DNA from: Jiangella alkaliphila
Lineage (GTDB): Bacteria > Actinomycetota > Actinomycetes > Jiangellales > Jiangellaceae
Assembly: GCF_900105925.1 (NCBI RefSeq)
Contig: NZ_LT629791.1
Span: 3,135,278 to 3,199,277 of the forward strand
Length of the DNA stretch: 64,000 nt
Reading direction: 5' to 3'
Shown: piece by piece, positions 16,011 to 63,222 of the stretch
Position numbering within the stretch: the first letter of the stretch is position 1
Layout: every line of letters starts with the position of its first letter
The notes under the pieces: generated by a model
Told to the model about the DNA's origin: nothing
The model's database searches: none
The model's input: only the letters and a program-made list of their open reading frames with translations
Made by a program: the position numbers and the translations under genes

Positions 16011-16052
16011 AGGGTGGCACCGGCCGGGAGATTCCGGCTCCAGTGCCACCCT
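16011..16052 (-). promoter_or_regulatory. intra-operon hairpin between binding-protein and ATPase genes
   Basis: Perfect 10-bp inverted repeat AGGGTGGCAC (16011-16020) / GTGCCACCCT (16043-16052), with some further GC pairing inside the 22-nt loop. It lies after the binding-protein stop and before the ATPase start. In other sugar operons such stem-loops raise the amount of binding protein over membrane components by partial termination or mRNA protection; that role is inferred here. Confidence 0.6.
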
Positions 16053-20909: not shown

Positions 20910-21604
20910 CACCGGTCCGTCGTGAAGCGGTAGCCGGCCCGCGGCTCGGTGACGATCAGCTCGGTGCCCTCGGGTCCTTCGAGCTTGGCCCGCAGCCGGC
21001 CGACGTACACGCGCGTGTACTCCGTCTGCGTCTCGTAGCCCGGCCCCCACACCCGGCGCAGCAGTTCGGCGTGCGACAGCAGCCGGCCGGGGTTCATCGC
21101 CAGCTCGCGCAGCAGCGCGTACTCGGTGCGGGTGAGGTGCACCCGCTTGCCGCCCTTCGTGACCAGCTGGGCGTCGAAGTCGATGCGCACGTCGCCGACC
21201 CGCACCTGCGGCGCCACCGGGCGCGGCTCGGCCGGACGGGCCCGGCGCAGCATGGCGTTGATGCGGGCGAGCAGTTCCTCGATGCCGAACGGCTTGGTGA
21301 GGTAGTCGTCGGCGCCCAGGTTCAGCGCCCGGACCTTGTCGGTCTCGCCCCGCCGCGCCGACAGCACGATGATCCCGACGTCGGACCGGTCGCGCACCGC
21401 CCAGCACAGGTCGAAGCCGTCGTGGCCGGGCAGCATGAGGTCGAGCAGCACGACGTCGGGCGCGGTCTCGTCGAGCAGCCTGAGCAGGTCGGAGCCGTCC
21501 GTCGACACGACGACCCGGTAGCCGCGGGCGGTGAGGTTGGACCGCAGGACGTCGACGATGATGCGGTCGTCCTCGACGATGAGGACGCCGGGAGCCTCAG
21601 CCAT
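20909..21604 (-). CDS. response regulator, OmpR/KdpE type
   Basis: A 231-aa regulator. The receiver has EDD at 11-13, phospho-acceptor D55 in VVLLDLMLPG and the Lys of LTKPFG near 103. The OmpR winged helix covers about 130-228 (LTRTEYALLRELAMNPGRLLS, then VYVGRLRAKL and EPRAGYRF). The start overlaps the ATPase-kinase fusion gene by 8 nt, so it is the partner of that kinase. Being inside a transporter operon, it likely autoregulates sugar uptake; targets are not identifiable here. Confidence 0.93.
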   Translation of the reverse strand: MAEAPGVLIVEDDRIIVDVLRSNLTARGYRVVVSTDGSDLLRLLDETAPDVVLLDLMLPGHDGFDLCWAVRDRSDVGIIVLSARRGETDKVRALNLGADDYLTKPFGIEELLARINAMLRRARPAEPRPVAPQVRVGDVRIDFDAQLVTKGGKRVHLTRTEYALLRELAMNPGRLLSHAELLRRVWGPGYETQTEYTRVYVGRLRAKLEGPEGTELIVTEPRAGYRFTTDR

Positions 21605-24008: not shown

Positions 24009-24095
24009 GCCACTATCATCCCCCCGCTGGCGCGAGACCTCGCGGTCGGCCGCCATCGTGACTCGCCGACGACGGCCGACCGTGCCATCGGCGCG

Positions 24096-40942: not shown

Positions 40943-42508
40943 TCACAGACTCGCGAAGGCGGGCACGGACTCGGCGGCGGGGTCGGTGAGGGCCTCGTGG
41001 TACGCCGACCAGTGCAGCAGGGCGCTGACGGCGACCGCGTTGCAGCCGGGCCAGTCCATCGTCACCAGGCGGGTGCCGAACCGGGTGTCCAGGCCCCACG
41101 TCGACAGCGAGCCCTGCTCGTCCTGGCCGGCGACGATGGCGTTGGCCGCGGCCAACGCCTTGTCGACGTAGCGGTCGTCGCCGGTCTCGCGGTGCAGCGT
41201 GAGCAGCGACACCAGCCAGTGTCCGGTGTGCACCTCCATCGGCCAGTAGCAGCGGTACTGCTCGAGCACTGTCGGCGTCGGGCAGTGCGGCGGGACGGGT
41301 GACTCCTCCGGCGCCCACACCACGAACTGGTCCTCGATGTAGGCGTTCAGCCGCGCCGCCAACTCCGCGCGCGAGGGCACGTCGCAGCGACCCGACAGCA
41401 GGTAGCGGATGGTCTCGTTGGTGTCCCAATGTTGCAGGTTGCTCCACGGCGGCGTCTCCGGGATGTCCTCGTACATCCCCTCCCAGCGGCCGTCCGCCAC
41501 CGGGCCGGCCAGCAGCCAGGCCTCGCCCTTGGCCGCGGCCGACGCGCGGGCGGCCAGCTGCGGTGGCGTCCCCGGCGCACCGGACACCTCGCCGAGCAGG
41601 GTGAGCAGCCAGATCGGGGTCACGACGGCGGAGGTGTAGCCGATGCTCGGCTCGCCCGTGCGCGGGTCGACGCGGAACGGCCAGGAGCCGTCCGGGTTCT
41701 GCAGGTCGGTCAGGACGTCGCCGATGCGCGCCGCCCGTTCGAGGTACCGCGACTCGCCGGTGCGCTCGAACAGGCGCAGCATCACCTCGCCGACGCGTGC
41801 GGCCCGGAAGACGGTGATGTGGTCGCCCTCGACCCACCCGCCGAACCCGCCCTCGAGCACCGTCGACGGCGCCAGCCCGCCCAGCCGCCAGTCGTCCGGG
41901 AGGTGGTGCTCGAGCAGCCACCGTCCGTACGCCAGCGCCTGCCGTTCCGCGTCGGCGGCCTGCGGGTGGTCCGGGAACCGGTCGGCGTACGTCAGGTAGG
42001 CATGGATGTAGCTGGCATGGTGCTGGGCCGGGAACGCCAGCCGGCCGCGCAGCCCCGACACGCTGTCCTCGAACGAGCTCCACGCGCTGCGGGGATAGCC
42101 GTCCTCGTAGCCGAAGACCTCGTCGCGGGCCGGCTGGAGCAGGTAGCCGACGGTGCGGTGGACGGCGCCGGCCCAGTCCGCGGGGGCGGGCCGGACGCCG
42201 TCGAACCCGGGGACCTTCCAGAACCGGCGGTGTTTGCGGACGGCCACCTCGCGGTCGCCGTCGAAGCCGCGGATCAGCACGTCCACCGGGCCGAGCGGGA
42301 GTAGCGGCCAGGCGGCGGACAGGTCGGCCGCAGGTGCGTCGACGGACCCCGTCCAGACGACCCGCTCGCGGTCGGCGACGGCGACCTCGAACCGCGAGGC
42401 CAGCGGCACCCACGCCCAGCGGAGCAACGGTGGCCCGACGAACCGGGGCGAGAACGCGGTCGGCCCCTCGAACCGGATCACGCGCGCTGGGTCGATCCAG
42501 TCACTCAT
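40943..42508 (-). CDS. uncharacterised alpha/alpha-toroid protein
   Basis: A 521-aa soluble protein with a roughly 110-aa N-terminal beta-rich part (RFEVAVADRERVVW, DVLIRGFDGDREVAV) and a helical body with repeated Trp/Tyr/His-rich helix hairpins (AQHHASYIHAYLTYADRFP, GSWPFRVDPRTGEPSIGYTS, EVHTGHWLVSLLTLHRETGD). This is the pattern of six-hairpin glycosidase or epimerase/lyase folds. No family is confidently recognised. It is the last gene of the PIG-L operon. Start choice is odd: three ATGAGTGC-like copies precede it, each in a different frame; 42508 is the in-frame one. Confidence 0.65.
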   Translation of the reverse strand: MSDWIDPARVIRFEGPTAFSPRFVGPPLLRWAWVPLASRFEVAVADRERVVWTGSVDAPAADLSAAWPLLPLGPVDVLIRGFDGDREVAVRKHRRFWKVPGFDGVRPAPADWAGAVHRTVGYLLQPARDEVFGYEDGYPRSAWSSFEDSVSGLRGRLAFPAQHHASYIHAYLTYADRFPDHPQAADAERQALAYGRWLLEHHLPDDWRLGGLAPSTVLEGGFGGWVEGDHITVFRAARVGEVMLRLFERTGESRYLERAARIGDVLTDLQNPDGSWPFRVDPRTGEPSIGYTSAVVTPIWLLTLLGEVSGAPGTPPQLAARASAAAKGEAWLLAGPVADGRWEGMYEDIPETPPWSNLQHWDTNETIRYLLSGRCDVPSRAELAARLNAYIEDQFVVWAPEESPVPPHCPTPTVLEQYRCYWPMEVHTGHWLVSLLTLHRETGDDRYVDKALAAANAIVAGQDEQGSLSTWGLDTRFGTRLVTMDWPGCNAVAVSALLHWSAYHEALTDPAAESVPAFASL

Positions 42509-42535
42509 CGGCACTCATTGGCACTCATACGCTGC
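42506..42535 (-). repeat. triplicated start region (10-bp tandem repeat)
   Basis: On the minus strand ATGAGTGCCA, ATGAGTGCCG and ATGAGTGACT follow each other at 42528, 42518 and 42508. Only the last is in frame with the alpha/alpha-toroid protein, while the ribosome site GGGAG is spaced for the first. The first ATG opens a 7-codon ORF whose TGA overlaps the 42508 ATG. Confidence 0.7.
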
Positions 42536-42543
42536 TCCCGAGG

Positions 42544-43710
42544 TCAGAACCAGGTCTCGACGACGTCGGTGACGACGCCGTCCGGGCCGGCCAGTGCGAG
42601 GTGCCGCCACTTGTCGAAGGTGGTGCACGGGTGCGAGATGCCGAGCTGCACGCGGTCACCGACGGCGAGCGCGGTGCCGGCGGGCAGCGAGACGAAGGCG
42701 TGCTGGTCGTTCAGGGCGGTGACCTCGGCGTCCAGCGAGCGAGTCTCCGTCGCGCCGCGGGGGAGGACGGCGAGCGGGATCGGCAGCCCCTGGTCGAACG
42801 AGGCGTCGCGGCGGCCGACGTCGAGGAAGGCGCGGCCGGGCTCGGGCGCCGACACGACGGTGCCCCACACGGTGAGCGCGGCGCGCAGCCGGGCCGGCGC
42901 GTCCGGGCCGTCGAGTGGGGAGTTGCGGCGGAACATGCCGGAGTCATGCGTGACGTAGCAGCCGCTGCGCAGCACCACCCGCCCGCCGCCGGCCAGCACG
43001 TCCGCCACGACGTCGTAGAACATGCTTCCGCCGGCCGACAGCACGAGGTTGCCGTTCACGTCGTCGCGCAGGTCGTCGCCGGCCGCCCGCAGCGTCTCCA
43101 GGTAGGCCCGTACCGCGGCCATCGACGGCGGCGTGCGGTCGCCGGCCACCGAGCCCTCGTAGCCGGCGACGCCGGTCAGACGGACGTTCGGCGACCGCCC
43201 GATCGCGGCCCGGACGGCGTCGCGATCGGCCTTCGTGCGGGTGCCGGTGCGCCCGCCCGGCAGCCCGACCTCCAGCAGGACGTCCATGACGGCGCCCGCC
43301 CGGGCCGCGGCCGTCTGCAGGATCTCGACGCCGTCGGGGGAGTCGACCCAGCAGCGGAACGCGAACCCGCCGCCGGCGACCTCGCCGGCCACCCAGGCCG
43401 CCTCGCCGGGCTGCACCAGCTCGTTGGCCAGCTGCACCGACGGCACGCCGTGCGCGCGCATGACCCGCACCTGGGCCGGCGTCGCGGCCGTGATGCCGGT
43501 GGCGCCGGCGGCCAGCTGGCGGTGGAACAGCGCCGGCGCCATGGTGGTCTTGCCGTGCGGCTGCAGCTCGGCGCCGTGCTCGCGGCACCACGCCGCCATG
43601 GTGGCGAGGTTGTGCTCCAGCGCGGCGTCGTCGAGGACCGCGAACGGGGTGGGCAGGTCGTGGACGGATCGGCCGGCGATCGAGGGCGTCGAAGGAGTCA
43701 CGGGCGTCAC
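42544..43710 (-). CDS. PLP-dependent D-threonine aldolase / D-serine dehydratase-like enzyme
   Basis: A 388-aa fold-type III PLP enzyme. The N-terminal alanine-racemase barrel has the PLP lysine in LQPHGKTTMAP and conserved LANELVQP and GVAGYEG. The C-terminal D-serine-dehydratase-like domain contains GISHPCTTFDKW, where the His-x-Cys pair binds a metal in characterised members. It probably cleaves or dehydrates a beta-hydroxy D-amino acid or related compound. The GTG at 43710 overlaps the PIG-L gene stop (GTGA). It lies 35 nt upstream of the alpha/alpha-toroid gene. Confidence 0.88.
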   Translation of the reverse strand: MTPVTPSTPSIAGRSVHDLPTPFAVLDDAALEHNLATMAAWCREHGAELQPHGKTTMAPALFHRQLAAGATGITAATPAQVRVMRAHGVPSVQLANELVQPGEAAWVAGEVAGGGFAFRCWVDSPDGVEILQTAAARAGAVMDVLLEVGLPGGRTGTRTKADRDAVRAAIGRSPNVRLTGVAGYEGSVAGDRTPPSMAAVRAYLETLRAAGDDLRDDVNGNLVLSAGGSMFYDVVADVLAGGGRVVLRSGCYVTHDSGMFRRNSPLDGPDAPARLRAALTVWGTVVSAPEPGRAFLDVGRRDASFDQGLPIPLAVLPRGATETRSLDAEVTALNDQHAFVSLPAGTALAVGDRVQLGISHPCTTFDKWRHLALAGPDGVVTDVVETWF

Positions 43711-44549
43711 GGTACCGGGAAGGTGCCCCGCAGGTTGACCGAGGAGTACGCGATGTGCCTGGTCAGCGGGTCGGCCGCGAGTGCGGCGTCGGTGACCGGC
43801 AGCTGCGCGTGCGTCTCGTTGTACAGCCGCACGAACGACTCGGCGAAGTTGACGCCGGCGGCCCGGCCGGCCTCGCCGTTGTACGACTCCACCAGCTTGC
43901 GGGCGAACACGCCGTGGTAGCCCTGGCTGACGAACTGGTCCATCGCCGCGAGCTTCGTCCCGACGACGTCGGTGATGTCGACGTAGCAGTCGTTGCGCAG
44001 CCCGTTCAGGCTGAGCGCGTCGAGGTTGTAGACCGGCAGCCCGGTGAGGAACACCTGCCGCACCGGCACCTCGTCGCGGCCGTCGAGGTTGCGCAGGTAG
44101 GTGCCGGCCCGCGAGAGCGCGGCCAGCGCCATGCCGGTGGCGACGGAGTGCGGGTCGAAGTACGCCGGGCTGCGCGGGTGGTCGGCGATGACGATCTCGG
44201 GCTGCTCGGCCGCGATCTGCTCCGCGATCTCCTCGACGACGTCCTCGCGGACGGTCGCGTAGGTGTCCTCGTGGTCCAGCGTGATGATCTTGCTGATGCC
44301 GATGATGTCGGCGGCCCGGTCCAGCTCGTCCTTCTTGTTCGCGACGATGGCGTCGAGGCCCGCGGTCGCGATGTCGTCGGACGGGTGGTCCTTGCGCCAC
44401 TCCTCGGCGTACTTGTTCGCGTGGATGCGCCCGCCGTGGCTCAGGATCAGCGCGACGACCTCGTCGCCGCGCTCGGCGTGCAGCGCCAGCGTGCCGCCGC
44501 AGTTCGTGATCGTGTCGGCCGGGTGGGCGTAGATCGTCATGATCTTCAT
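43707..44549 (-). CDS. PIG-L/LmbE-family deacetylase with altered catalytic motif
   Basis: A 280-aa LmbE-like protein. The family normally has AHPDDE at the N-terminus; here it is YAHPADTITNCGG. The metal-binding His and second Asp are kept, but the first Asp, the general base in MshB, is Ala, and the Glu is Thr. ADHPRSPAYFDPHSVA supplies later His ligands. It may be an altered hydrolase or a different activity rather than an N-acetylglucosamine deacetylase. The ATG at 44549 heads a three-gene operon driven from a regulon promoter lying inside the end of the upstream gene. Confidence 0.8.
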   Translation of the reverse strand: MKIMTIYAHPADTITNCGGTLALHAERGDEVVALILSHGGRIHANKYAEEWRKDHPSDDIATAGLDAIVANKKDELDRAADIIGISKIITLDHEDTYATVREDVVEEIAEQIAAEQPEIVIADHPRSPAYFDPHSVATGMALAALSRAGTYLRNLDGRDEVPVRQVFLTGLPVYNLDALSLNGLRNDCYVDITDVVGTKLAAMDQFVSQGYHGVFARKLVESYNGEAGRAAGVNFAESFVRLYNETHAQLPVTDAALAADPLTRHIAYSSVNLRGTFPVP

Positions 44550-44600
44550 GGAGGGTCTCCGGGGTCCGGGATGCGCCAGCGCCTGGGAACGAGCACACAC

Positions 44601-44620
44601 GGAACCTCATTCCATGTCAA
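44601..44620 (-). promoter_or_regulatory. regulon promoter/operator site A (upstream of PIG-L operon)
   Basis: Minus strand: -35 TTGACA (44615-44620), then T and the palindrome GGAATGAGGTTCC (44601-44613). The site covers the last codons and stop of the alpha-galactosidase gene. The operator lies in the -35/-10 spacer, as expected for a repressor. It ends 51 nt before the PIG-L start. Confidence 0.75.
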
Positions 44621-46712
44621 GCACCACGAGTTCGCTCGCGTAGTCGCCGACCAGCGGCACCCGCAGGCCGTGGTGCATGAGCAGCGCCCCGCTGTACCGG
44701 GTGCCCGATGCCGTGTCGACGTACACAGCGGCCGGGTCGAGGCCGCGCAGCCGCAGCAGCACCGTCCGCCGCAGGTGCCGCACCGACGGCGCGAACGCGA
44801 ACACCATGAGCTGGTGACCCGACGGCGACAGGTAGCTGACCGCCGTCACGTCGTCGGGCGCCCCGCTCAGCCGGCGCATGACCCCGTACTGCACCGTCGC
44901 GCGCACCCGCTTGTACTGCGCGACGTACTGCGCCGCCTCGGCCAGGTCCGACGACGACCACGACACCAGGTCGCCGCCGATGCCCAGCAGCCCGGTCATC
45001 GCCGAGTGGAAGCGGAACCGCAGCGGGATGTCGCGCTTGGTGAGGTAGGTGGGGGAGTCGGTGACCCATGCCATCATCGTGTGCGGCGAGTGCACGTAGG
45101 CGTACCCGTGCTGGATCGAGAGCCGTTCCAGCGCGTCGGTGTTGTCGCTGGGCCACACCCACTCCGTGCGCGACAGAACGCCGAGGTCGGCCCGGCCGCC
45201 GCCGGAGGCGCAGCTCTCGATCCAGACGTCCGGATGCAGGGCGCGGACGCGGTCGAGCACGTCGTAGAACCCTTCGACGTGGCCGATCCAGACCGAGCCG
45301 GACTCGTCGAGCCCATCGGAGGCCTCCGTCAACGGCCGGTTGAGATCCCACTTCAGCGCGTCGATCGGCGCCGACGACAGCAGGGCGTCCAGCGCCTCGA
45401 CGAGGTGGGTGCGGACGTCCGGACGGCTCAGCGCCAGCAGGTGGGTCTGCCGGGCGAGCGTGCGCGGGCGGGTCGGCCACTGGTAGATCCAGTCCGGGTG
45501 GGCCCGGAAGAGGGCGCTGTCCGGGCTGACGGCCTCGGGCTCGACCCACAGGCCGAACCGCATGCCAAGGCCGTGCACCTCGTCGGCCAGCGGCGTCAGG
45601 CCATCGGGGAACGCCTCCGGGTCCGGGGTCCAGTCGCCGATGCCGGCGCTCTCGTCGTTCCGGCCGGCGAACCAGCCGTCGTCGACGACGAACAGCTCGG
45701 CGCCCAGTCCGGCCGCCCGCCGGGCCAGCTCGAGCTGCGAGTCGGGGCGAACGTCGAAGAACGTCGCCTCCCAGCTGTTGTAGAGGACCGGCCGGACGGT
45801 GCCGGATCGGGGCACGACGTGGCGGCGCTCGTAGGCGTGCCAGCGGTCGGTGAGATCGTCGTGGCCCGCACCCGCGAAGACGCCGACCGAGACGGGGGTC
45901 GTCCACGACGCGCCCGGGGCCAGTGGGTGCCGAAGGTCGAAGTCGTTGACGCCGGCGGTCACGTGCAGCCGGCCGTCGTAGGCCAGCTCGGCCGCCAGCC
46001 GCCACGAGCCGCTCCAGGCCAGCGCGACGCTCCACACCTCGCCGGCGTCGTCGCCCGCGGCACGGTCCAGCGCCAGCCACGGCTGGGCGGCGTGACCGGG
46101 GATGCCGCGGCGCGACTCCAGCACGAGCCGGCCGGGCCCGAGCGGCCGCCGCACCACCTGCGTCTCGGCGGCGTACATGCCGGCCAGCCAGGTCGCGGCC
46201 CAGCTCGGCTGCCAGGGCAGTGCCCAGCCGGCCGAGTACGCGCGGTCCAGCACGAGCGGCTCGTCGCCGTCGTTGATCACCTCGCACCAGCGCTCCAGCG
46301 CGCCGCCGCGGACCCGATAGTGCAGCTCGGTGGCGAACGGGTAGTGCCGGTCCTCGAGCCGGACGGCGAGCGTGTCGCGGCCGGGTCCGATCGTGTGGTC
46401 CGCGTAGGCCAGATCGAGCGCCCGGACGCCGTCGGCGAATTCGACCCCGAGCGCGCTCTCGTCGAACCGCCGCCCGCCGTGCTGCACGAACTCCTCGGCG
46501 TGCGCGCGCGGCGACGACCAGGTGTTCGAGCCGAAGTCGCCGGCGTCCTCGGCGAGCAGCGTCGCGACGTCGGACGGCGCGACCGGCCCGCCCCAGTGCA
46601 CGTGCCGCACCCCGCCGCCGGGCTCGACGGCCAGGACGTACGCGAAGCCGGCGCCGCTGAGCAGGAACGCGTTCTGCTCGCCCAGGTGCTGGATCGGAGA
46701 GTCGTCAGGCAC
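44607..46712 (-). CDS. alpha-galactosidase, glycoside hydrolase family 36
   Basis: A 701-aa retaining alpha-galactosidase. An N-terminal beta-supersandwich (about 1-300) precedes the TIM barrel, with LFVVDDGWFAGRND near 340, nucleophile Asp456 in IDALKWDLNRP and acid/base Asp522 in VWPSDNTDALER. There is no signal peptide, so it acts in the cytoplasm on imported galactosides. The GTG at 46712 has GAGGAG 4 nt upstream; an upstream in-frame TTG at 46742 lacks one. It has its own regulon promoter (46754-46773). Its end overlaps the next operon's promoter. Confidence 0.93.
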   Translation of the reverse strand: MPDDSPIQHLGEQNAFLLSGAGFAYVLAVEPGGGVRHVHWGGPVAPSDVATLLAEDAGDFGSNTWSSPRAHAEEFVQHGGRRFDESALGVEFADGVRALDLAYADHTIGPGRDTLAVRLEDRHYPFATELHYRVRGGALERWCEVINDGDEPLVLDRAYSAGWALPWQPSWAATWLAGMYAAETQVVRRPLGPGRLVLESRRGIPGHAAQPWLALDRAAGDDAGEVWSVALAWSGSWRLAAELAYDGRLHVTAGVNDFDLRHPLAPGASWTTPVSVGVFAGAGHDDLTDRWHAYERRHVVPRSGTVRPVLYNSWEATFFDVRPDSQLELARRAAGLGAELFVVDDGWFAGRNDESAGIGDWTPDPEAFPDGLTPLADEVHGLGMRFGLWVEPEAVSPDSALFRAHPDWIYQWPTRPRTLARQTHLLALSRPDVRTHLVEALDALLSSAPIDALKWDLNRPLTEASDGLDESGSVWIGHVEGFYDVLDRVRALHPDVWIESCASGGGRADLGVLSRTEWVWPSDNTDALERLSIQHGYAYVHSPHTMMAWVTDSPTYLTKRDIPLRFRFHSAMTGLLGIGGDLVSWSSSDLAEAAQYVAQYKRVRATVQYGVMRRLSGAPDDVTAVSYLSPSGHQLMVFAFAPSVRHLRRTVLLRLRGLDPAAVYVDTASGTRYSGALLMHHGLRVPLVGDYASELVVLDME

Positions 46713-46753
46713 GTCGCTCCTCACGGACGGGTCAGTCGCCAACTACTAGACGT

Positions 46754-46773
46754 GGGACGACGTTTCATGTCAA
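46754..46773 (-). promoter_or_regulatory. regulon promoter/operator site B (upstream of alpha-galactosidase)
   Basis: Minus strand: TTGACA (46768-46773), T, then GAAACGTCGTCCC (46754-46766). This is the most divergent copy of the GGAAyGnnGTTCC palindrome but has identical spacing to -35. It lies 41 nt before the GTG start. The region is divergent with the gene at 46821, which may share control. Confidence 0.65.
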
Positions 46774-46820: not shown

Positions 46821-49055
46821 ATGTCCACATCGGCGAGAGTTCGGCTGGTCCGCGACGACGATCGGGTCCAGGTCACCACGCAGTCCTACACCTGGACGTG
46901 GACCGCGGCCGGCGACCTGCTGACCCTGGCCGACAGACGGGGCCGGACGATCGTGTCCGGCCCGATGCAGCCGGCCGTGGTGACCGGTCGCGACGGAGCC
47001 GCCCGGTACATGCCCGGCCGGCTCGACGGCGTGGACGTCGACGGCGAGCGGCTCACCGTGACCTACTCGGGGGTGAACGGCGCCGACGTCACCACGGTGA
47101 GCTGGCGGTTCGAGGCCGAGCGGTGCTGGATCGACCCCGTCGAGTACTCCATGGCCGCCGACGCCGACGTCATCTCGCTGGTCTACTTCGCCCGCGCGCC
47201 CGAGCGGGCCGGTGACCAGCCCCGGCCTGGCCTCCTCTGCCGCTACCTGATCCACCCGGGCATCTCCGGCTCGGCGGCCGTGAGCCCGGTGATCCAGACC
47301 CAGGCCAAGCTCGACACCTTGACCTGGCTCGGCCGTGGCGGCGGCGGTGCGGTCCCGATGCGCCAGCAGTGGGGACTGCCGGTGCACTACGTGGCCGGTA
47401 TCGGCTCGTCGGCGCACCCGGTCGAGGTCGGCGCGATGACGTCGAAGCTGAGCGATGCGTTCTGTCTCGGACTCGGCGACCTCCCGGCGGGCGATCTGCT
47501 GCTGCGGTTCCAGGACGAGCGGTTCTCGCCGGTACTCCAGATGCACGGCGACCTCTGGGGCCACCTGCGCGGTCCGGCGACCTTCGCGCTGGGTGCGCCC
47601 ATGGTGTTCACCGTCGGACCCGCCTATCCGGACGCGATCCGGGCCTACCAGCGCGCGCTCGTCGAGTCGGGCATCGTCTCGGTACCGGCACCGTCACGGC
47701 GGAAGGCCGAGGCGGCCACGTCGTCGCAGTTCAACACCTGGGGTGCCCAGCTTGCGGCGGGGAAGGCGTCGCAGCGCTTCGACCAGGCCGGCCTGGAGGC
47801 GATCCACGCCCAGCTGCTCGGCTCCGGCCTCGACGTCGGCATGTTCGTGATCGACGACAAGTGGGAGGGCGAGTACGGCAAGCTCGAACACGCACCGGAT
47901 CGCTTCCCCGAGTTCGAGCGGGCACTGGCGGACGTCCGCGGACACGGTCATCGGATCGGCCTGTGGGCGGCGTTCCTGCGCTGTGACGACCCCGCGACCC
48001 ACGGGCTCTCGGCGGCGGACCTGCTCAGCGGTCCCGATGGCGCTCCGATCGTGCTGGGGCCGGCCGAGGCGCCGTACTTCCTGTTCGACGTCACCCGGGC
48101 CGGGGTGCGTGAGGTGCTGCGGCACCGGATCGCCGCGTTCGTCGCGCACTACCGGCCCGACATGGTGAAGTTCGACTTCGGCTACGAGATCCCCGACCTG
48201 TCGCAATGCGCGCCGTCCGACCTGAGCTTCGCCGGTGAGCGGCTGCTGGGCCTGGCGCTCGACGTGGTGGTCGGAGCCCTCCGTGCCGCCGACCCCGACA
48301 TCGTGGTCATGTACTACTCGCTGTCGCCGCTGTTCGCACCGTACGTCGACCTGCACAGCCTGGACGACCCCTGGATGAACGCCCAGGAGTACCACGCGGA
48401 GGCCAACCGCCGGCTGTACTTCAGCCGGCTGCTCGGCGAGCTCGGCACGCCGACCTACGGGTCCGGTGGCTACGACTGGGTCAACCAGGTCGACATCTGG
48501 TTCGACTCGGTCGCCGCCGGCCCGCTGGGCATGCTGAGCAGCTTCACCGGTGACCTCTCCGACAGCAGTTGCACCCCCGAGCACGTCGCGGCGCACAACG
48601 GCCTGGTACGGCTCGCGCGCCGCTCCACCCGGTTCCGGGTCGAAGCGATCGGCGCGTCCGGGCTCGGCCCGGTCACGGGTGCGCGGTCGTCGTCGTGGGT
48701 GCGGCTCGAGGACGGTGCGCCGGTGCTGGTCGTGCTGCGGGTGGCCGGGTTCCTGGGCGCACCGGGGGTGCGCGAGTACGGCGGCCTGCTCAGCACGGAC
48801 GCGGACGTCGCGGTCGGCTCGCTCGACACCGGCGGGCTGGCGACGGCACGCCGGATCGGTGTCGTCCCGCGCGGCGACGGCGAGCTGATCCTGCGCTTCG
48901 TGCCCGCCGGCGAATCGGTCGCGGTCGTCGTACACACGCTCGACGGCGGGCGGCACGAGTCCTCACCGGAGGCGCGCGACGGCGAGCTCGCCATCCCGTT
49001 GTCCACCGCGGTCGACGGTGTCCCGGTCACCTGGATCGAGCTTGTCAGGCGTTGA
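46821..49055 (+). CDS. GH31/GH36-like alpha-glycosidase
   Basis: A 744-aa cytoplasmic protein with an N-terminal beta-sandwich (about 1-260) and a TIM barrel. VGMFVIDDKWEGEYGKLEHAPDRFPEF marks the beta-strand with a substrate-binding Asp pair, and MVKFDFGYEIPD carries the probable nucleophile Asp, as in clan GH-D/GH31 retaining alpha-glycosidases. A distal LHSLDDPWMNAQEY may include the acid. The C-terminal domain is a beta-sandwich. The specificity is not clear. ATG 46821 follows GGGAGG. It is divergent from the alpha-galactosidase; its stop (VRR, TGA) lies within the next gene's promoter. Confidence 0.75.
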   Translation: MSTSARVRLVRDDDRVQVTTQSYTWTWTAAGDLLTLADRRGRTIVSGPMQPAVVTGRDGAARYMPGRLDGVDVDGERLTVTYSGVNGADVTTVSWRFEAERCWIDPVEYSMAADADVISLVYFARAPERAGDQPRPGLLCRYLIHPGISGSAAVSPVIQTQAKLDTLTWLGRGGGGAVPMRQQWGLPVHYVAGIGSSAHPVEVGAMTSKLSDAFCLGLGDLPAGDLLLRFQDERFSPVLQMHGDLWGHLRGPATFALGAPMVFTVGPAYPDAIRAYQRALVESGIVSVPAPSRRKAEAATSSQFNTWGAQLAAGKASQRFDQAGLEAIHAQLLGSGLDVGMFVIDDKWEGEYGKLEHAPDRFPEFERALADVRGHGHRIGLWAAFLRCDDPATHGLSAADLLSGPDGAPIVLGPAEAPYFLFDVTRAGVREVLRHRIAAFVAHYRPDMVKFDFGYEIPDLSQCAPSDLSFAGERLLGLALDVVVGALRAADPDIVVMYYSLSPLFAPYVDLHSLDDPWMNAQEYHAEANRRLYFSRLLGELGTPTYGSGGYDWVNQVDIWFDSVAAGPLGMLSSFTGDLSDSSCTPEHVAAHNGLVRLARRSTRFRVEAIGASGLGPVTGARSSSWVRLEDGAPVLVVLRVAGFLGAPGVREYGGLLSTDADVAVGSLDTGGLATARRIGVVPRGDGELILRFVPAGESVAVVVHTLDGGRHESSPEARDGELAIPLSTAVDGVPVTWIELVRR

Positions 49056-49071
49056 CATGGAACGGCGTTCT
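49052..49071 (+). promoter_or_regulatory. regulon promoter/operator site C (upstream of CBM/propeller gene)
   Basis: TTGACA (49052-49057), T, then GGAACGGCGTTCT (49059-49071); a CATTGT -10-like hexamer follows at 17-nt spacing from the -35. It overlaps the stop codon of the upstream glycosidase gene and lies 44 nt before ATG 49116. Confidence 0.78.
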
Positions 49072-49115
49072 GTTCATTGTGCGAGCACTCGTCCGCCCCG
49101 AAGCAGGGAGTCGCC

Positions 49116-51149
49116 ATGGCCGACCAGAACCGCCGCCGCTTGGGCCGAGCCGTCACCGCCGCCGGCGTGGCCGTCGCCGGCGTCGCGCTGTCATCCACGC
49201 TGCTGGTGTCGGCCCAGCCGTTGCCGCAGCCCATCGTCGGCAAGCCCGGGCTGCTGCTCCAGAACGGCGCGTTCGACGCCGGCAACCGCAGTGGTCACCC
49301 GATCGGCTGGGGCGTCGAGGGCAACGCCGAAGGTGCCAACATCGTCAACCTGGGCGCGTACCGCACCGCCGGGCTCGGCTCACTGGAGATCAACGACGTC
49401 GCCGGCTCGGCCGTCTCGGTGCGCAGCGAGCGCATCGTCGCGACGGCGGGCGACGACTACACCCTCACGGCGAACGTCAAGGGCAGGAGCGGCACACCGG
49501 CCTGGCTCTATCTGGAGTTCTGGGACTTTGACCGCAACCGCATCGGCGCCACCAACGCCGAGCCCGCCTTCAGCACCGACTGGCAGACGGTGACCGTCAC
49601 CGGCGTCGCCCCGCCGAACACCGCGCACGTGACGGCGCACGTCTACGGCTCGCAGGCGGCCGCCGGGATCTCGTACTGGGACGAGGTGGTGCTCAGCGCG
49701 GCACCGCCGGCCTACGACCCGCACCTGGGCGCCGAGCGCGAGCTGTTCCTCGACGACTACCGCATCGAGTCCGCGCACGACGTCGAGCGCGTCGTCCATC
49801 CCGGTGAGAAGCTCCAGCGCCCGGTGCTTCGACCGGACCAGCCGTGGGAGGACAGCGCCTACACCTACGGCTCGGTCTACGTGATCGACGGCCTCTACCG
49901 CATGTGGTACACGTGCTACAACGACCAGGCGCCGCACTACCACCTCTGCTACGCCGAGAGCGCCGACGGCATCACCTGGGACAAGCCGCTGGGCCGCTCC
50001 ACCGTCTCCGGGGTCGGCTACAAGGACATCCCGGCGTCGCAGACGAACATCGTGATGGCCGGCAGCGGCGCGCACGTCGCCTACAACCCGGACGCTCCCG
50101 CGGACCGGAAGTACTTCCTGATGAAGTCGCAGCCGGCACCGGGCGTGCCGGGCGGCAACGGCTACTACGGCTGGAAGTCTCCCGACGGGTACAACTGGAC
50201 GCCGCTGTCGTCCACGCACCTGCTGAACGACGGCGACGTCGTCCAGACCACCTGGGATCCCCGGGCCGAGCTGTATATCGCGACGATCAAGAAGCGGATG
50301 TTCACCTCCCGCACGCCCGGCATCTACGAGCGGTCGGCGTTCGTGTCCACCAGCCCGGACCTGGTGACCTGGACGACACCGCAGCTGGCGGTCATGGGCG
50401 ACTCCGCCGACGACGGCGCCGCCGAGGCGATCGGCGGGCTCGAAGCCCAGATCTACGGCATGCCGGTGCATCCGTACGAAAGCACCTACGTCGGCGTCCC
50501 ATGGGTCTTCCTGACCACCGACTACACCTCGGGCGAGTACGCCACTGCCGCCGACGGGCCGGTGCTCCCGCAGCTGGCGACCTCGCGCGACCTGCTGCGC
50601 TGGGAGCGTCCGGTCCGCGATCCGCTGCTCGAGCCGAGCCGGGGTGGCGCTTGGGACGACGGCGCCCTCTACACCGCCTCGAACATCCTGGTCGACGACG
50701 AGAAGATCACGATGTACTACGCCGGCTTCCAGAACGGGCACGGCGGCGCCGACGCCGACGACCCCAACCGGGACCGGCACTTCGGCAACGTCGGCCTCGC
50801 GACGTGGCGCCGCGACGGCTTCGCGTCGATGACCAACGCGTCGCTGCCCGGCCTCGGCGACCCCGGCGAGATCACGACCAAGCCGGTGGTCTTCGACGGC
50901 GCGTCGCTGAACGTCAACGCCGTCGTCCACGAGGGCGGCAGCCTGCAGGTCGAGGTGCTGACCGCCGACGGCGAGCCCATCCCCGGCTTCACCGCCGCCG
51001 ACGTGCTGCCGATCAACGGCGACCGGCTGTCGGCGCCGGTCAACTGGCGCGGCCGAGCCCGGCTCGCGAACCTCGCCGGCCAGCAGGTCAAGTTCCGGTT
51101 CCACCTGGTCAACACCGATCTGTACTCCTACTGGGTGGGGCAGGGCTGA
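49116..51149 (+). CDS. secreted CBM plus five-blade beta-propeller glycosidase-like protein
   Basis: A 677-aa exported protein. The N-terminus RRRLGRAVTAAGVAVAGVALSS resembles a Tat-type or lipid-free Sec signal, with cleavage after about 35. A CBM4/9-like domain (about 45-200; LLLQNGAFDAG, ISYWDEVVLS) is followed by a beta-propeller (about 205-580) with ERELFLDDYRIES, GLYRMWYTCYN, CYAESADGITWDKP and ILVDDEKITMYYAGFQNG, resembling GH32/GH43/GH130-type folds. A small C-terminal beta domain follows. The enzyme activity is not fixed. The GTG of the ceramidase-like gene follows 4 nt after its stop, so they form an operon. Confidence 0.75.
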   Translation: MADQNRRRLGRAVTAAGVAVAGVALSSTLLVSAQPLPQPIVGKPGLLLQNGAFDAGNRSGHPIGWGVEGNAEGANIVNLGAYRTAGLGSLEINDVAGSAVSVRSERIVATAGDDYTLTANVKGRSGTPAWLYLEFWDFDRNRIGATNAEPAFSTDWQTVTVTGVAPPNTAHVTAHVYGSQAAAGISYWDEVVLSAAPPAYDPHLGAERELFLDDYRIESAHDVERVVHPGEKLQRPVLRPDQPWEDSAYTYGSVYVIDGLYRMWYTCYNDQAPHYHLCYAESADGITWDKPLGRSTVSGVGYKDIPASQTNIVMAGSGAHVAYNPDAPADRKYFLMKSQPAPGVPGGNGYYGWKSPDGYNWTPLSSTHLLNDGDVVQTTWDPRAELYIATIKKRMFTSRTPGIYERSAFVSTSPDLVTWTTPQLAVMGDSADDGAAEAIGGLEAQIYGMPVHPYESTYVGVPWVFLTTDYTSGEYATAADGPVLPQLATSRDLLRWERPVRDPLLEPSRGGAWDDGALYTASNILVDDEKITMYYAGFQNGHGGADADDPNRDRHFGNVGLATWRRDGFASMTNASLPGLGDPGEITTKPVVFDGASLNVNAVVHEGGSLQVEVLTADGEPIPGFTAADVLPINGDRLSAPVNWRGRARLANLAGQQVKFRFHLVNTDLYSYWVGQG

Positions 51150-57461: not shown

Positions 57462-58388
57462 GTGAAGTGGGAACACGTGCTCGACCTCGACATCGTCGAC
57501 GCGCACCACCACCTGTGGGACCTGGCCCGGTCCTACCCGTGGCTGCAGGAGACGGCCGGTGAGCTGCAGGTACACGGCGACGATGCCGCGATCCGGCGCG
57601 ACTACCTGGTCGACGACTTCCGGCGGGACGCCGAGCCGCTCCGGCTGGTCGCGTCGGTGCACGTCGACGCCGGCGCGGCCGACCCGCTGGAGGAGGCGCG
57701 CTGGCTGCAGCAGGTGGCGGACGAGTCCGGGTACCCGCAGGCGATCGTGGCCGGCGCCCGCCTGGATGCCGGCGACGTCGACGAGGTGCTGGACGAGCTG
57801 GCGGCGCTGCCGAACGTCCGCGGCGTCCGGCACATCCTGAACTGGCACCCCGACCCGGCCATGAGCTACACCGACCGGCCGGACCTGATCACCGACCCGG
57901 CCTGGCTGGCCGGCTTCGCCCGGCTGGCGCACCACGGGCTCTCGTTCGACCTGCAGGTGTACCCGGCGCAGCTCGCCGAGGCGGCGCAGCTGGCAGCCGG
58001 CCATCCGGACACGATGGTGGTGCTGAACCATGCCGGGATGCCGCTCGGCCGTGACCCGGACAGCCTGCTGGACTGGCGCCGCGGCCTCGACGCACTCGCC
58101 GCCCGGCCGAACACCGCGGTGAAGATCTCCGGCCTGGGCATGACCGACCACCGGTGGACCCTCGGCTCGCTGCGCCCGGTGGTGCTCGAGTGCATCGAGG
58201 CGTTCGGCGCGGACCGCGCGATGTTCGCCAGCAACTTCCCGGTCGACGGCCTGTACTCGACGTACGCCCAGCTCTACGACGCGTTCGACACGATCACGGC
58301 GGACTTCTCGGCCGGCGAGCGCGCCGCGCTCTTCGCCGGGACCGCCCGCCGGGTCTACGGCCTGGCCGACCGGGCAGCGCCGGCGTGA
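57462..58388 (+). CDS. amidohydrolase-2 lactonase (candidate L-rhamnono/L-fucono-lactonase)
   Basis: A 308-aa TIM-barrel hydrolase of the COG3618 type. The metal motif is IVDAHHHLWDL; further ligands are in VVLNHAGMPL, and the conserved end is RAMFASNFPVDGL. COG3618 includes L-fuconolactonase and L-rhamnono-lactonase, and the gene is coupled by a 4-nt overlap (GTGA) to a rhamnonate-dehydratase-like gene, so a sugar-lactone role fits. The start is GTG 57462; GTG 57477 is an alternative. Confidence 0.85.
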   Translation: MKWEHVLDLDIVDAHHHLWDLARSYPWLQETAGELQVHGDDAAIRRDYLVDDFRRDAEPLRLVASVHVDAGAADPLEEARWLQQVADESGYPQAIVAGARLDAGDVDEVLDELAALPNVRGVRHILNWHPDPAMSYTDRPDLITDPAWLAGFARLAHHGLSFDLQVYPAQLAEAAQLAAGHPDTMVVLNHAGMPLGRDPDSLLDWRRGLDALAARPNTAVKISGLGMTDHRWTLGSLRPVVLECIEAFGADRAMFASNFPVDGLYSTYAQLYDAFDTITADFSAGERAALFAGTARRVYGLADRAAPA

Positions 58389-59581
58389 GCCCGCTGACGG
58401 TCAGGGCGGTCCGGGCGTACCTGCCCGACGCCGGCGGCGGCGCCGACTACCACGACCAGCCGGCCGGGCACTGGATCGACGACCACATCGCCAGCCCGAT
58501 GGCGAAGTACGCGGAGTACCGCGCCAGCCGGCAGTCGTTCGGGCTGCACCTGCTCGGCACGGTGGTGGTCGAGGTGGAGGCGTCCGACGGCACCGTCGGG
58601 TTCGCGCCCACCACCGGCGGCGAGCCGGCCGCGTGGATCGTCGAGAACCACCTGGCGAAGCTCGTCGAGGGTGCGCCGGTGACCGAGCTGGAGCGGATCT
58701 GGGACCGGATGTTCCTGTCGACGCTGCACTACGGCCGCAAGGGCCTGGCGCTGAACGCGATCAGCGGCGTCGACCTGGCGCTGTGGGACCTGGCCGGGAA
58801 GCTCCGTGGCGAGCCGGTGCACGCGCTGCTCGGCGGCGCGGTCCGCGACGAGCTGGTCTTCTACGCCACCGGTCCGCGCCCCGACGTCGCCCGCGACCTG
58901 GGCTTCATCGGCGGGAAGGTGCCGCTGCGGCACGGCCCGGCCGAGGGCGAGGCCGGCATCGCCCGCACCGTCGCCGCGCTGGCGCAGCTGCGCGACGCCG
59001 TCGGCCCGGAGTTCTGGCTGATGCTCGACTGCTGGATGTCGCTGGACGTCCGTCACGCCGCCCGGCTGGCGCACGCGCTGGACGCCGTCGGGCTGCGCTG
59101 GCTGGAGGAGCCGCTGTTGCCGGACGACTACTGGGGGCACGCCGCGCTGCGCAAGCGGCTGCCGGCCGGCATGCTGCTGAGCAGCGGCGAGCACGAGGCG
59201 ACGCGGTACGGCTTCCGGCTGCTGCTCGAGCTGGGCGCCGTCGACATCCTGCAGCCCGACGTCGGCTGGTGCGGCGGGCTGACCGAGCTGCTGAAGATCT
59301 CCGCGCTGGCCGACGCGCACGGCGCGCTGGTCGTGCCGCACGGATCGAGCGTGTACTCGTACCACTTCGTCGCGACCCGCCACAACAGCCCGTTCGCCGA
59401 GTTCCTGATGATGCATCCGGACGGCACCGAGGTGGTGCCGATGTTCCGGCCGCTGCTCCTGGACGAGCCGGTGCCGCGTGGTGGGCGGCTGGCGGTGTCG
59501 GAGCTGGACCGGCCCGGGTTCGGCGTGCGGCTGGACCCGTCGTGCGAGCTGCGCCGCCCGTACCGCCGCCCCTCGCCGTGA
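58385..59581 (+). CDS. rhmD: L-rhamnonate dehydratase-like enolase-superfamily enzyme
   Basis: A 398-aa enzyme predicted to dehydrate L-rhamnonate to 2-keto-3-deoxy-L-rhamnonate. The N-terminal capping domain has ADYHDQPAGHWIDDHIASPMAK and SRQSFGLHLLGTVVVEVEASDG, close to known RhmD proteins. The barrel has YGRKGLALNAISGVDLALWD; Mg ligands are in LMLDCWMSLD, WLEEPLLPDDY and SSGEHEATRYGF; HGSSVYSYHF carries the conserved His of the active site. L-mannonate or L-lyxonate as substrate cannot be excluded. The start is coupled to the lactonase. Confidence 0.88.
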   Translation: MSPLTVRAVRAYLPDAGGGADYHDQPAGHWIDDHIASPMAKYAEYRASRQSFGLHLLGTVVVEVEASDGTVGFAPTTGGEPAAWIVENHLAKLVEGAPVTELERIWDRMFLSTLHYGRKGLALNAISGVDLALWDLAGKLRGEPVHALLGGAVRDELVFYATGPRPDVARDLGFIGGKVPLRHGPAEGEAGIARTVAALAQLRDAVGPEFWLMLDCWMSLDVRHAARLAHALDAVGLRWLEEPLLPDDYWGHAALRKRLPAGMLLSSGEHEATRYGFRLLLELGAVDILQPDVGWCGGLTELLKISALADAHGALVVPHGSSVYSYHFVATRHNSPFAEFLMMHPDGTEVVPMFRPLLLDEPVPRGGRLAVSELDRPGFGVRLDPSCELRRPYRRPSP

Positions 59582-61886: not shown

Positions 61887-63077
61887 TCAGTCGACGTCGG
61901 TGGTGTTGTAGCGCAGCGCGATGGCGGCGTTGCGGTCGGTGTCGTAGACGACGGTGACCAGCCGCGTCGTACCGATGGCGGCCGTGCCCGGATAGCCGGA
62001 GTCCCAGTTCGAACCCGGGTTGTAGAGCACGTGCTTCGGCGTGTTGCCCCACAGCACGTCGGTGCGCCGCAGCGCGATCATCGTCGGCCGGTTCGTCGGC
62101 GACGTGTTCGCGTTCGGCTGGCTCCACAGCGTCGGCACCAGGTTCGTGCCCGGGATGAACTCGACCTCCGGCCCGTGCATCGGCACGCCCAGCGAGGTCG
62201 GCGCCGTCCACGTCGTCATGTACGTGTTGTCGTAGGAGTCGCTCTGCACGCCGGCGGTGCTGGCGCCCGACGTCGACGCGGTCCTGATGATCGCGCGGAC
62301 GTGGCCGGGCTCGATCTCGGTGATGGCCGGCTCCTGGTAGTTCACCGACGCGCTGCTGGCGATGGTCTTCTGCCGGCCGGTCACCCGTCCGTCCCAGGTC
62401 ACGCCGCCGTCGACGCTGGCCACAACGATCGAGGCGTGCGTGCTGGCCCCGTTGGGCGTGCCGTAGAGCGGGATCAGCAGCTGGCCGTTGGACATCTCGG
62501 CGATCTTGGCGCTGTTGATCGGCCGCGGCATGGTCGACGAGAACACCTGCACCGGCGCCGAGAACGCGGCGTTGTCGGCGTCGCGCCGCTTCACCTGCGT
62601 CTGCACGAACCCGCCGGTGGTGCCGTCGGCCACGAAGTACGACAGCAGCAGCCGGCCGCTGCGCAGCGTGGTCAGCGACGGGTCGCGGTAGTCGTAGTCC
62701 TCGAGGTCGGCGACGATGAACGGCGTGGCCTGCTGCCAGGTGGCGCCGCCGTCGCGGCTGCGCATCATCCGCAGCTGGCTGGGCTGCTGTGAGTGGGCGC
62801 TGGACCAGCGGTAGACCATCAGCAGGTCGTCCGCGTCGCCGTGCGGGTCGCGGGTCAGGTCGGGGAAGTACGCCCGGCAGGTGGTGCCGAGCACGGGGTC
62901 GCCGCACGGGCCGCCGGGCACCGCCACCGACTGCACGATCGCGGCCGGCGCCAGGTCGCGCGGGGCCTTGACCGTGGTTGGGCCGGCGGTGGCCGGGAGC
63001 CCGGCGAGGACGACCGCGAGGATCGCCGCCAGTCCGGCGACGAGCGAGAGGGACCTGCGTGGATCGAGTCGTGTCAT
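61887..63077 (-). CDS. secreted Asp-box beta-propeller (sialidase-fold) protein
   Basis: A 396-aa exported single-domain propeller. The signal peptide is residues 1-32 (ATAGPTT). Asp boxes SRDGGATWQQ and SVDGGVTWDG and strands LLMVYRWSS, YDYRDPSLTTL and NYQEPAITEIEPGHVRAIIRTAS are of the exo-glycosidase propeller type. The E-P-A-I-T-E turn may hold the catalytic Glu. It lacks the discoidin and jelly-roll modules of its neighbours. It heads the minus-strand operon with the 749-aa propeller gene under regulon site D. Confidence 0.82.
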   Translation of the reverse strand: MTRLDPRRSLSLVAGLAAILAVVLAGLPATAGPTTVKAPRDLAPAAIVQSVAVPGGPCGDPVLGTTCRAYFPDLTRDPHGDADDLLMVYRWSSAHSQQPSQLRMMRSRDGGATWQQATPFIVADLEDYDYRDPSLTTLRSGRLLLSYFVADGTTGGFVQTQVKRRDADNAAFSAPVQVFSSTMPRPINSAKIAEMSNGQLLIPLYGTPNGASTHASIVVASVDGGVTWDGRVTGRQKTIASSASVNYQEPAITEIEPGHVRAIIRTASTSGASTAGVQSDSYDNTYMTTWTAPTSLGVPMHGPEVEFIPGTNLVPTLWSQPNANTSPTNRPTMIALRRTDVLWGNTPKHVLYNPGSNWDSGYPGTAAIGTTRLVTVVYDTDRNAAIALRYNTTDVD

Positions 63078-63118
63078 GACCGCACCTCCGACGCCGAGTC
63101 AGTGGCACGAGGAAACCC

Positions 63119-63138
63119 AAAACGGCATTCCATGTCAA
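63119..63138 (-). promoter_or_regulatory. regulon promoter/operator site D
   Basis: Minus strand: TTGACA (63133-63138), T, then GGAATGCCGTTTT (63119-63131), 41 nt before ATG 63077. It forms a divergent pair with site E on the other strand. Confidence 0.75.
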
Positions 63139-63165: not shown

Positions 63166-63185
63166 TTGACATGGAATGACCTTCT
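63166..63185 (+). promoter_or_regulatory. regulon promoter/operator site E
   Basis: TTGACA (63166-63171), T, then GGAATGACCTTCT (63173-63185), 37 nt before ATG 63223. It is divergent to site D, with 27 bp between the two -35 boxes. Confidence 0.75.
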
Positions 63186-63222
63186 GTGTCTGCTGTCAGG
63201 CATCGACTCCTGGAGGCAGCCC

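Follow-up and report, generated by a model that had tools for sequence, protein, structure and literature searches.

A PIG-L protein lacking the deacetylase base and a fold-III PLP dehydratase recur together as part of a proposed larger actinobacterial regulon

What do three tightly coupled genes of Jiangella alkaliphila, encoding a PIG-L-fold protein, a pyridoxal 5'-phosphate (PLP) enzyme and an alpha/alpha-toroid protein, do together, and do they make up a pathway of their own? The genes lie in a stretch of 64,000 nucleotides (nt), here called the window, which corresponds to positions 3135278-3199277 of the 7.72-Mb single-contig genome. A preliminary description of the window had taken the trio as a pathway for catabolism of an amino-sugar or of an amino-acid-decorated glycan. 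We find that the recurring unit is PIG-L with a fold-III PLP dehydratase, and that this unit is part of a larger regulon with its core outside the window. On balance we lean towards the reading that PIG-L and the PLP enzyme belong to a dispersed actinobacterial regulon for the oxidative catabolism of an N-acyl amino-sugar or amino-sugar acid, with PIG-L serving as a base-less metal enzyme. The features of the locus itself are as follows.

44607..46724, minus strand: GH36 alpha-galactosidase gene, directly 5' of PIG-L; start uncertain, the first in-frame TTG being at 46742
44600..44620, minus strand: promoter-operator TTGACATGGAATGAGGTTCCG, a -35-like TTGACA overlapping a palindrome, 50 nt 5' of the PIG-L ATG and reaching into the GH36 end
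43707..44549, minus strand: PIG-L/LmbE-fold protein of 280 amino acids (aa) with HPAD, the general-base Asp replaced by Ala and the ligands H9, D12 and H134 kept
42544..43710, minus strand: fold-III PLP enzyme of the D-serine-dehydratase type, PLP Lys in PHGKTTMAP, H-x-C metal motif SHPC
40943..42508, minus strand: toroid protein of 521 aa, with a predicted N-terminal beta part and (alpha/alpha)6 barrel

The minus-strand order is GH36, PIG-L, PLP, toroid. GH36 ends 57 nt before PIG-L starts, PIG-L shares 4 nt with the PLP gene, whose GTG start lies inside GTGA, and 35 nt separate the PLP and toroid genes; coordinates and spacings agree to the base with the preliminary description. Its reading of the first two proteins was likewise borne out. 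The PIG-L protein, with H-P-A-D in place of H-P-D-D, belongs to the superfamily at 57.9 bits against PF02585 (cut-off 28.2), and the PLP protein carries Ala_racemase_N (46.1 bits, cut-off 24.1) and D-ser_dehydrat (76, cut-off 22), the domains of the D-serine-dehydratase type.

Conservation of the trio and of the PIG-L/PLP pair

The intact trio was found in six of 12 Jiangella genomes, the window's included, and in Jiangella only; it is therefore not confined to one strain, the outcome that the preliminary description had named as a refutation, and it was not found outside the genus. PIG-L was present in 11 of the 12 genomes. The PLP gene lies directly 3' of it in 10, while in G113 contig ends cut the pair (L047/L048). 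GH36 lies 5' of PIG-L in eight of the nine assessable genomes, in two others the contig ends first, and the ninth, J. muralis, has a gene for a flavin adenine dinucleotide (FAD)/4Fe-4S oxidase at the GH36 position. On the other flank we saw an EamA gene in 11/11 and a Mug gene in 10/11 Jiangella genomes (both named by eye), and the closest orthologs (86-93%) are all from Jiangella. As a separate observation, an FAD/4Fe-4S oxidase gene and a regulon site without mismatch (16090) are accompanied in L044 by remnants of another PLP gene copy, namely two short pieces at 15822-16014, which look like what is left of a decayed second operon that included such a gene.

The toroid protein is the part of the trio that does not travel. 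At E<=1e-8 it was detected in seven of 393 genomes of the class, all of them Jiangella, and one of these copies, in J. asiatica (G209; L008:2271-3489), is broken: it matches as two overlapping pieces that leave residues 291-400 uncovered. Four of the 11 Jiangella genomes with PIG-L (G113, G144, G164 and G226) lack the toroid gene. Because of this distribution we regard the toroid protein as an accessory, and the trio was rejected as a conserved unit. No Pfam family scored above its cut-off in the protein. Structure prediction gave a model (mean predicted local distance difference test (pLDDT) score 60, eight close sequences) in which residues ~103-513 align with (alpha/alpha)6 enzymes at VIA Z 21-24, in agreement with a six-hairpin form of the toroid fold first supposed; the rows are tied among cellobiose 2-epimerases, AprG, unsaturated glucuronyl hydrolases and GH76, and no closer family was listed, an absence that we do not count as evidence. 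The protein is thus like GH88/GH105, GH76, cellobiose 2-epimerase/AGE and AprG in its (alpha/alpha)6 fold, and unlike them in its extra N-terminal part, in lacking a Pfam family over cut-off and in sharing 8-14% identity in the VIA rows. From the model we infer a genus-specific accessory carbohydrate enzyme, possibly unsaturated-glycuronidase- or epimerase-like.

The PIG-L/PLP pairing, by contrast with the toroid protein, extends beyond the genus. One scan returned PIG-L orthologs at 23 loci, seven in Jiangella and 16 elsewhere; the search required exact short peptides, so that the 16 are a sample. They come from 15 genomes (60-68% identity) of Asanoa, Dactylosporangium, Virgisporangium, Actinomadura, Actinoallomurus, Actinophytocola, Microbacterium, Microlunatus, Nakamurella, a Propionibacteriales metagenome-assembled genome (MAG) and Paenibacillus. 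The distribution is sporadic in actinobacteria, with the single case in Paenibacillus, and the family appears rare, since no ortholog outside Jiangella was found in the 393-genome class sample at E<=1e-40. At nine of the 16 loci PIG-L has a PLP dehydratase within 20 kb, against 0.16 loci expected (P for nine or more about 5e-15, with the loci treated as independent although the genera are related, and with the query taken from the genome of L009, which thus matches itself). The gaps between the two genes are 34, 38, 38, 40, 2193, 3481, 10981, 17438 and 17575 nt; at the other seven loci (L014, L016, L017, L019, L021, L022 and L024) no PLP dehydratase was found within 20 kb.

The PLP enzymes at these loci are not orthologs of the one in the window. 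The Jiangella and non-Jiangella groups are about 30-35% identical. The closest solved relative of the window protein is 3gwq, labelled D-serine deaminase (E 1.5e-76), and that of the non-Jiangella enzyme, among solved structures, is D-threo-3-hydroxyaspartate dehydratase. An H-x-C metal motif marks dehydratases of this fold and H-x-D marks D-threonine aldolases. The window protein and 3gwq have SHPC and the D-threonine aldolase 4v15 has SHVD; the Asanoa PLP enzyme beside PIG-L has NHAC, like the D-threo-3-hydroxyaspartate dehydratase 3wqc. The PLP proteins resemble the fold-III dehydratases (D-serine, D-threo-3-hydroxyaspartate and 3gwq) in domains, PLP Lys and H-x-C, the difference being that two distinct subgroups accompany the PIG-L family here. 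Assignment of the window gene as a D-threonine or 3-hydroxy-aspartate aldolase was rejected on the H-x-C motif and on a BhcC score (NF045642) of 99.6 bits against an equivalog cut-off of 690.

The recurrence of the pairing tells strongly against the weakest alternative, an ordinary D-serine detoxification enzyme joined by chance to an unrelated deacetylase: the D-serine deaminase label of 3gwq speaks for it, and we hold it to be very improbable when PIG-L pairs with a non-orthologous partner in other families, at nine loci where chance predicts 0.16.

A shared operator and a remote core cluster

The sequence before PIG-L is one instance of a pattern, TTGACATGGAAYGNNGTTYCR, in which TTGACA runs into the palindrome TGGAAYGNNGTTYCR. 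The pattern was spotted by eye in intergenic DNA and then tested; a palindrome scan of the intergenic regions of the window had given only two overlapping matches, neither of interest. The window holds five sites at <=3 mismatches, against none in 100 shuffles, the pattern having been derived from these sites. Besides the one before PIG-L, related sites precede GH36 and the gene at 49116-51149 and occur in the 63.1-kb region, consistent with the promoter shared with glycosidases that the preliminary description had proposed. In the whole genome there are 11 sites, seven of them within 3179.9-3215.7 kb, and none for the reversed pattern. Two of the six sites outside the window lie <=17 kb from its edge and 5' of genes of the same island, one of which is an Amidohydro_2 gene beside the core cluster described below. 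Among the 11 PIG-L-bearing Jiangella genomes a site stands directly 5' of PIG-L in seven (0-1 mismatch) and 5' of the PIG-L-abutting GH36 gene in four (2-4 mismatches).

The 16 non-Jiangella loci, which were not used in defining the motif, contain 15 sites in 310 kb, compared with one for the reversed control and none for 20 shuffled patterns. A site lies <=120 nt 5' of PIG-L at eight of these loci, and in L012 and L018 it stands before a BNR_2 gene that ends in an overlap with the start of PIG-L; counted at <=3 mismatches before PIG-L or its operon, sites are present at 10 of the 16. Twelve genomes scanned in full gave between 3 and 19 sites apiece, while the reversed pattern gave 0-3. G398, G400 and G401 have PIG-L and the core cluster on different contigs, which in draft genomes does not prove distance, with sites both before PIG-L and inside the cluster.

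Around PIG-L or the PLP gene a gene cluster recurs in varying combinations; most of the genomes with non-Jiangella PIG-L loci carry it, and in other genera the motif also occurs inside it. Gene calls in the retrieved loci come from a simple script based on codon-position GC, so that starts are approximate, and the family labels used here (c2, c5 and so on) denote single-linkage BLAST groups of which representatives only were scanned against Pfam. The cluster comprises an oligopeptide-type ATP-binding cassette (ABC) importer (SBP_bac_5/oligo_HPY), an IclR protein, two Gfo/Idh dehydrogenases, an FAA hydrolase, an Amidohydro_2 protein (c2), a D-aminoacylase-like Amidohydro_3 protein (c5) and a PLP dehydratase, often with RidA and a histidinol-dehydrogenase-like protein; a class-III aminotransferase, an MR_MLE enzyme and BNR_2 proteins are also found around PIG-L and the PLP gene. 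The arrangement in Actinophytocola (L080) reads c29, site, aminotransferase, site, Gfo/Idh twice, FAA hydrolase, five importer genes, IclR, RidA, site, c5, c2, PLP, site and histidinol-dehydrogenase-like gene, with PIG-L on another contig. A RidA-like protein (c24, Pfam-tested in L012 only) stands beside c5 or the PIG-L operon in L010, L012, L018, L079, L080 and L081. IclR is the natural candidate for the regulator because it lies in the cluster and, in L015, adjoins two sites; the conserved IclR protein is probably the regulator. Its genes in J. alkaliphila and Actinophytocola are L059:15755-16621 and L080:11954-12784.

The c5 family largely co-occurs with PIG-L. It passes E<=1e-130 in 12 of the 393 class genomes, namely the 11 PIG-L-bearing Jiangella and G124, which has no PIG-L (49% identity), and in 12 of the 15 non-Jiangella PIG-L genomes (49-100% identity), the genome of L012, from which the query was taken, being counted among these 12; one further genome gave a 62% partial match.

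In J. alkaliphila the core cluster (L059) lies at ~3218-3233 kb, ~38 kb from the trio, and its proteins are 44-79% identical to those of other families. It has no PLP dehydratase. The trio's PLP protein is the only PF14031 protein found in this genome, and since the cluster lacks a dehydratase it is the only candidate found for that step. From sequence, it is likely to be a non-orthologous replacement of the cluster dehydratase. Thus the trio proved not to be the pathway first supposed: the toroid protein is a genus-level addition, and PIG-L and the PLP enzyme are outlying parts of a larger regulon centred outside the window. We also observed that a conserved member of the cluster (L059:4039-5301) resembles glutamate-1-semialdehyde 2,1-aminomutase below the subfamily cut-off (364.9 bits against 398), and a shift of the amino group may be part of the pathway.

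The remote cluster bears on the possibility that the trio is simply a local Jiangella glycosidase operon in which PIG-L and the PLP enzyme detoxify side products, unconnected to the core cluster. The trio does occur only in Jiangella, GH36 precedes it in most of the assessable genomes, and the motif is weak near the remote cluster of this genome; with a motif conserved across families, PIG-L linked elsewhere to a different PLP dehydratase and the core cluster co-occurring with it, we judge this improbable.

The PIG-L active site and the proposed pathway

In LmbE/PIG-L proteins the catalytic signature is HXD1D2 together with a His, D1 being the general base, according to a published review (PMC4101496). 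The window protein has H9-P10-A11-D12 with H134, and thus keeps the His-Asp-His metal ligands of de-N-acetylases (assigned by alignment) while Ala takes the place of D1. H9, A11, D12 and H134 are invariant in 21 of 21 aligned orthologs (six from Jiangella and 15 from loci of other genera, the latter 60-68% identical to the window protein); L005, L006, L016 (unclear start) and L025 (27% partial match) were left out of the alignment. HPAD was read in all 34 locus entries, that is, in all 27 distinct genes (11 in Jiangella and 16 in others). We found seven PIG-L proteins in the J. alkaliphila genome, five with HPDD, one with HPYD and the trio's with HPAD; the HPYD paralog (L056:1501-1863, plus strand; G000:C1:5147325-5147687) is a second PIG-L protein of this genome without the general-base Asp.

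The top Foldseek and VIA rows for the PIG-L model (mean pLDDT 74) are all LmbE proteins, so the fold, like the loss of the deacetylase base, is clear. The closest solved proteins are archaeal diacetylchitobiose deacetylases, which have HPDD, and GalB, which has HSAD. Foldseek placed GalB (4-carboxy-2-hydroxymuconate hydratase, PDB 5cgz) first, at E 1.5e-13, with diacetylchitobiose deacetylases next. AHPAD of the window protein aligns with AHSAD of 5cgz, so that both have a base-less H-x-A-D, and S-x-G-x-R and W-R-K residues are shared as well. Unlike GalB, a hydratase of gallate/protocatechuate meta-cleavage, the PIG-L genes examined here stand in a sugar/amino-acid context and not an aromatic one, and among the neighbours scanned, which did not cover every neighbour, there were no aromatic-cleavage genes. 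Because the metal site is kept and the general base is lost as in GalB, a lyase- or hydratase-type step seems the most likely one for PIG-L, and its chemistry may be hydratase-like.

An amidase-like role, the label used in the preliminary description, is the alternative that best survives: PIG-L could be a true amidase or de-N-acylase with a substituted base, the pair then being a two-step module of the OngB-OngC kind in Jiangella, and the D-aminoacylase-like enzyme doing something else. The fold and three metal ligands are those of BshB, MshB and diacetylchitobiose deacetylase, the last of these ranks right after GalB, and PIG-L adjoins a PLP dehydratase gene in Jiangella and at four other loci. 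These same deacetylases differ from all 27 members of the family in having D1; an Ala at the general base in 27/27 genes, when five of the seven PIG-L proteins of the window's own genome keep HPDD, makes the amidase label doubtful, and the D-aminoacylase-like enzyme is also present in most PIG-L genomes. We therefore consider an amidase unlikely, if still worth weighing.

For the regulon as a whole, a precedent is available in the Ong pathway (OngB/OngC/OngD) of Pseudoalteromonas, which acts on oxidised chitin. In the portions of the accounts that were accessible (PMC9537276, PMC12017989), a D-aminoacylase-type deacylase, a fold-III PLP deaminase and RidA form one regulated set, as their counterparts appear to do at several of the loci here; the oligopeptide-type ABC importer, the two Gfo/Idh dehydrogenases, the FAA hydrolase, IclR and PIG-L were not met in those portions. 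The Ong pathway also has a KDG kinase and takes GlcNAc1A as its substrate. By analogy, secreted beta-propeller-type enzymes and alpha-galactosidases would free an N-acyl 2-amino-2-deoxy sugar or sugar acid from its glycan; the ABC importer would take it up, and Gfo/Idh and Amidohydro_2 proteins would then oxidise it and open the lactone. The D-aminoacylase-like enzyme would de-N-acylate the oxidised intermediate, the PLP enzyme would eliminate ammonia, as OngC does with D-glucosaminate, and RidA would clear the imine, the 2-keto-3-deoxy product passing through oxidation to an FAA-type cleavage. PIG-L might carry out a metal-assisted hydration or dehydration, or another lyase step, on an oxidised intermediate, as opposed to an ordinary de-N-acetylation; this is the least firm of the steps. 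The catabolic theme of the preliminary description, of an amino-sugar or amino-acid type, stands as the most likely one; the trio itself is not the pathway. Sialic-acid catabolism was discarded as the route, 0/17 Jiangellales genomes (0/13 species) being listed with that pathway (PMC8754123), and a ceramide or sphingoid substrate was dropped, since ceramidase-like genes match below cut-off only.

Several observations weigh against this regulon for an amino-sugar. The motif was defined from window sites, five of the seven clustered sites in the genome are not independent of that definition because they lie inside the window, and loci of related genera are not independent of one another. The sites at the genome's own cluster are weak, with three mismatches at the neighbouring Amidohydro_2 gene and four at the first Gfo/Idh gene, the only in-cluster site. 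No site at <=3 mismatches precedes PIG-L in L011, L020 and L022-L024 (TTGACA-less palindromes were seen by eye 5' of PIG-L in the last three), and the excess over the reversed control is small in G407 (3 against 1) and G393 (6 against 3). Second copies of the cluster in G059 and G113 (L063, L064) include a PLP gene from the other group but have no PIG-L nearby; the 50 kb of J. alkaliphila that were read (3195-3245 kb) showed neither RidA nor a histidinol-dehydrogenase-like gene; c5 is weak in Microbacterium (G399, 39%) and has no match at E<=1e-60 in Paenibacillus (G395). As for PIG-L, the VIA rows are tied, with GalB at Z 21.5 (root-mean-square deviation 3.4, 217 aligned) against 22.5 for BshB, alongside diacetylchitobiose deacetylases, and only 24% of the structurally aligned residues are identical to GalB.

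A further point touches the substrate. With 276-277 bits, D-aminoacylase and N-acyl-D-glutamate deacylase are somewhat better matches of the c5 relative in L012 than PpOngB is (236), so that the substrate could be an N-acyl-D-amino acid, the main rival on this point. In that case the regulon would serve an N-acyl-D-amino-acid or D-3-hydroxy-amino-acid peptide, with the glycosidases merely co-controlled, in line with the SBP_bac_5/oligo_HPY importer and with the kinship of the non-Jiangella PLP enzyme to D-threo-3-hydroxyaspartate dehydratase. The two Gfo/Idh dehydrogenases and an FAA hydrolase that resembles, below cut-off, 2,4-didehydro-3-deoxy-L-rhamnonate hydrolase fit it poorly, as does the presence of the motif at BNR_2 and other glycan-type genes, and we think such a substrate rather unlikely.

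Returning to oxidative amino-sugar catabolism as the preferred reading, a bolder form of it can be put forward tentatively, as a conjecture that may well fail: the base-less H-x-A-D PIG-L proteins could be a new family of metal-dependent hydratases or lyases, providing the signature step of an undescribed oxidative pathway under IclR control for an N-acyl amino-sugar acid in actinobacteria, with the Jiangella PLP enzyme, encoded in an alpha-galactosidase operon, as a non-orthologous takeover of the adjoining step that eliminates ammonia. The literature searched, with subscription journals mostly outside its coverage, yielded no description of this regulon or gene set. Sequence alone has sufficed here to define a regulon that spans families, has an operator that can be read, and includes an importer and many enzymes, so that its catabolic route can be studied through simple tests of growth and transcripts in soil actinobacteria that grow in culture. 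For a subfamily that can be recognised, the prediction is that the common annotation 'PIG-L family deacetylase' is mistaken; the Jiangella PLP enzyme is a likely instance of a pathway enzyme replaced by a non-ortholog.

Further sites and neighbouring genes

The remaining sites of the window and the genes beside them are the following.

46753..46773, minus strand: regulon site with three mismatches, 5' of GH36 in the divergent promoter region between GH36 and 46821-49055
46821..49055, plus strand: divergent gene whose 744-aa product, a putative alpha-galactosidase, has no Pfam match and weakly resembles a solved GH31 alpha-galactosidase (E 1.9e-8)
49052..49072, plus strand: regulon site with one mismatch, 5' of 49116-51149
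49116..51149, plus strand: c29-family protein with an N-terminal signal-like stretch (by eye); resemblance to GH32N below cut-off
61887..63077, minus strand: BNR_2 (sialidase-like) protein, 3' of the regulon site at 63118-63138
63118..63138, minus strand: regulon site with two mismatches, in the divergent 63.1-kb region
63166..63186, plus strand: regulon site with two mismatches, where a BNR_2 gene begins that extends past the window

Two of these genes have relatives near the same elements elsewhere: the c29-family protein of the window is 59% identical to L080:42-2024, which lies beside a regulon site in Actinophytocola, and the BNR_2 protein at the window end (767 aa as called in L058) is 68% identical to the product of a gene near PIG-L in the Propionibacteriales MAG. 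The called start of the latter gene, 63157, is probably too far 5'. The BNR_2 proteins match a solved BNR protein weakly (E 0.021); polysaccharide-lyase or GH33-type action may be considered for them.

Near SDR and BNR_2 genes, window positions 57462-59581 (plus strand) encode an L-rhamnonate dehydratase, which scores 658.9 bits to NF011968 (cut-off 393), and an Amidohydro_2 protein of lactonase-like type; judged by these matches, this part of the island is probably a non-phosphorylative L-rhamnose route. Also inside the island, L058:17220-19815 holds a cytochrome P450 gene and a ferredoxin-reductase-like gene adjoining genes for a 2-hydroxyacid dehydrogenase and a DHDPS-family aldolase. Elsewhere in the window, positions 21597-24056 (minus strand) encode an 819-aa protein of unusual make-up, in which a histidine kinase (HisKA, HATPase_c) is fused to a GAF domain and an ABC-transporter ATPase.

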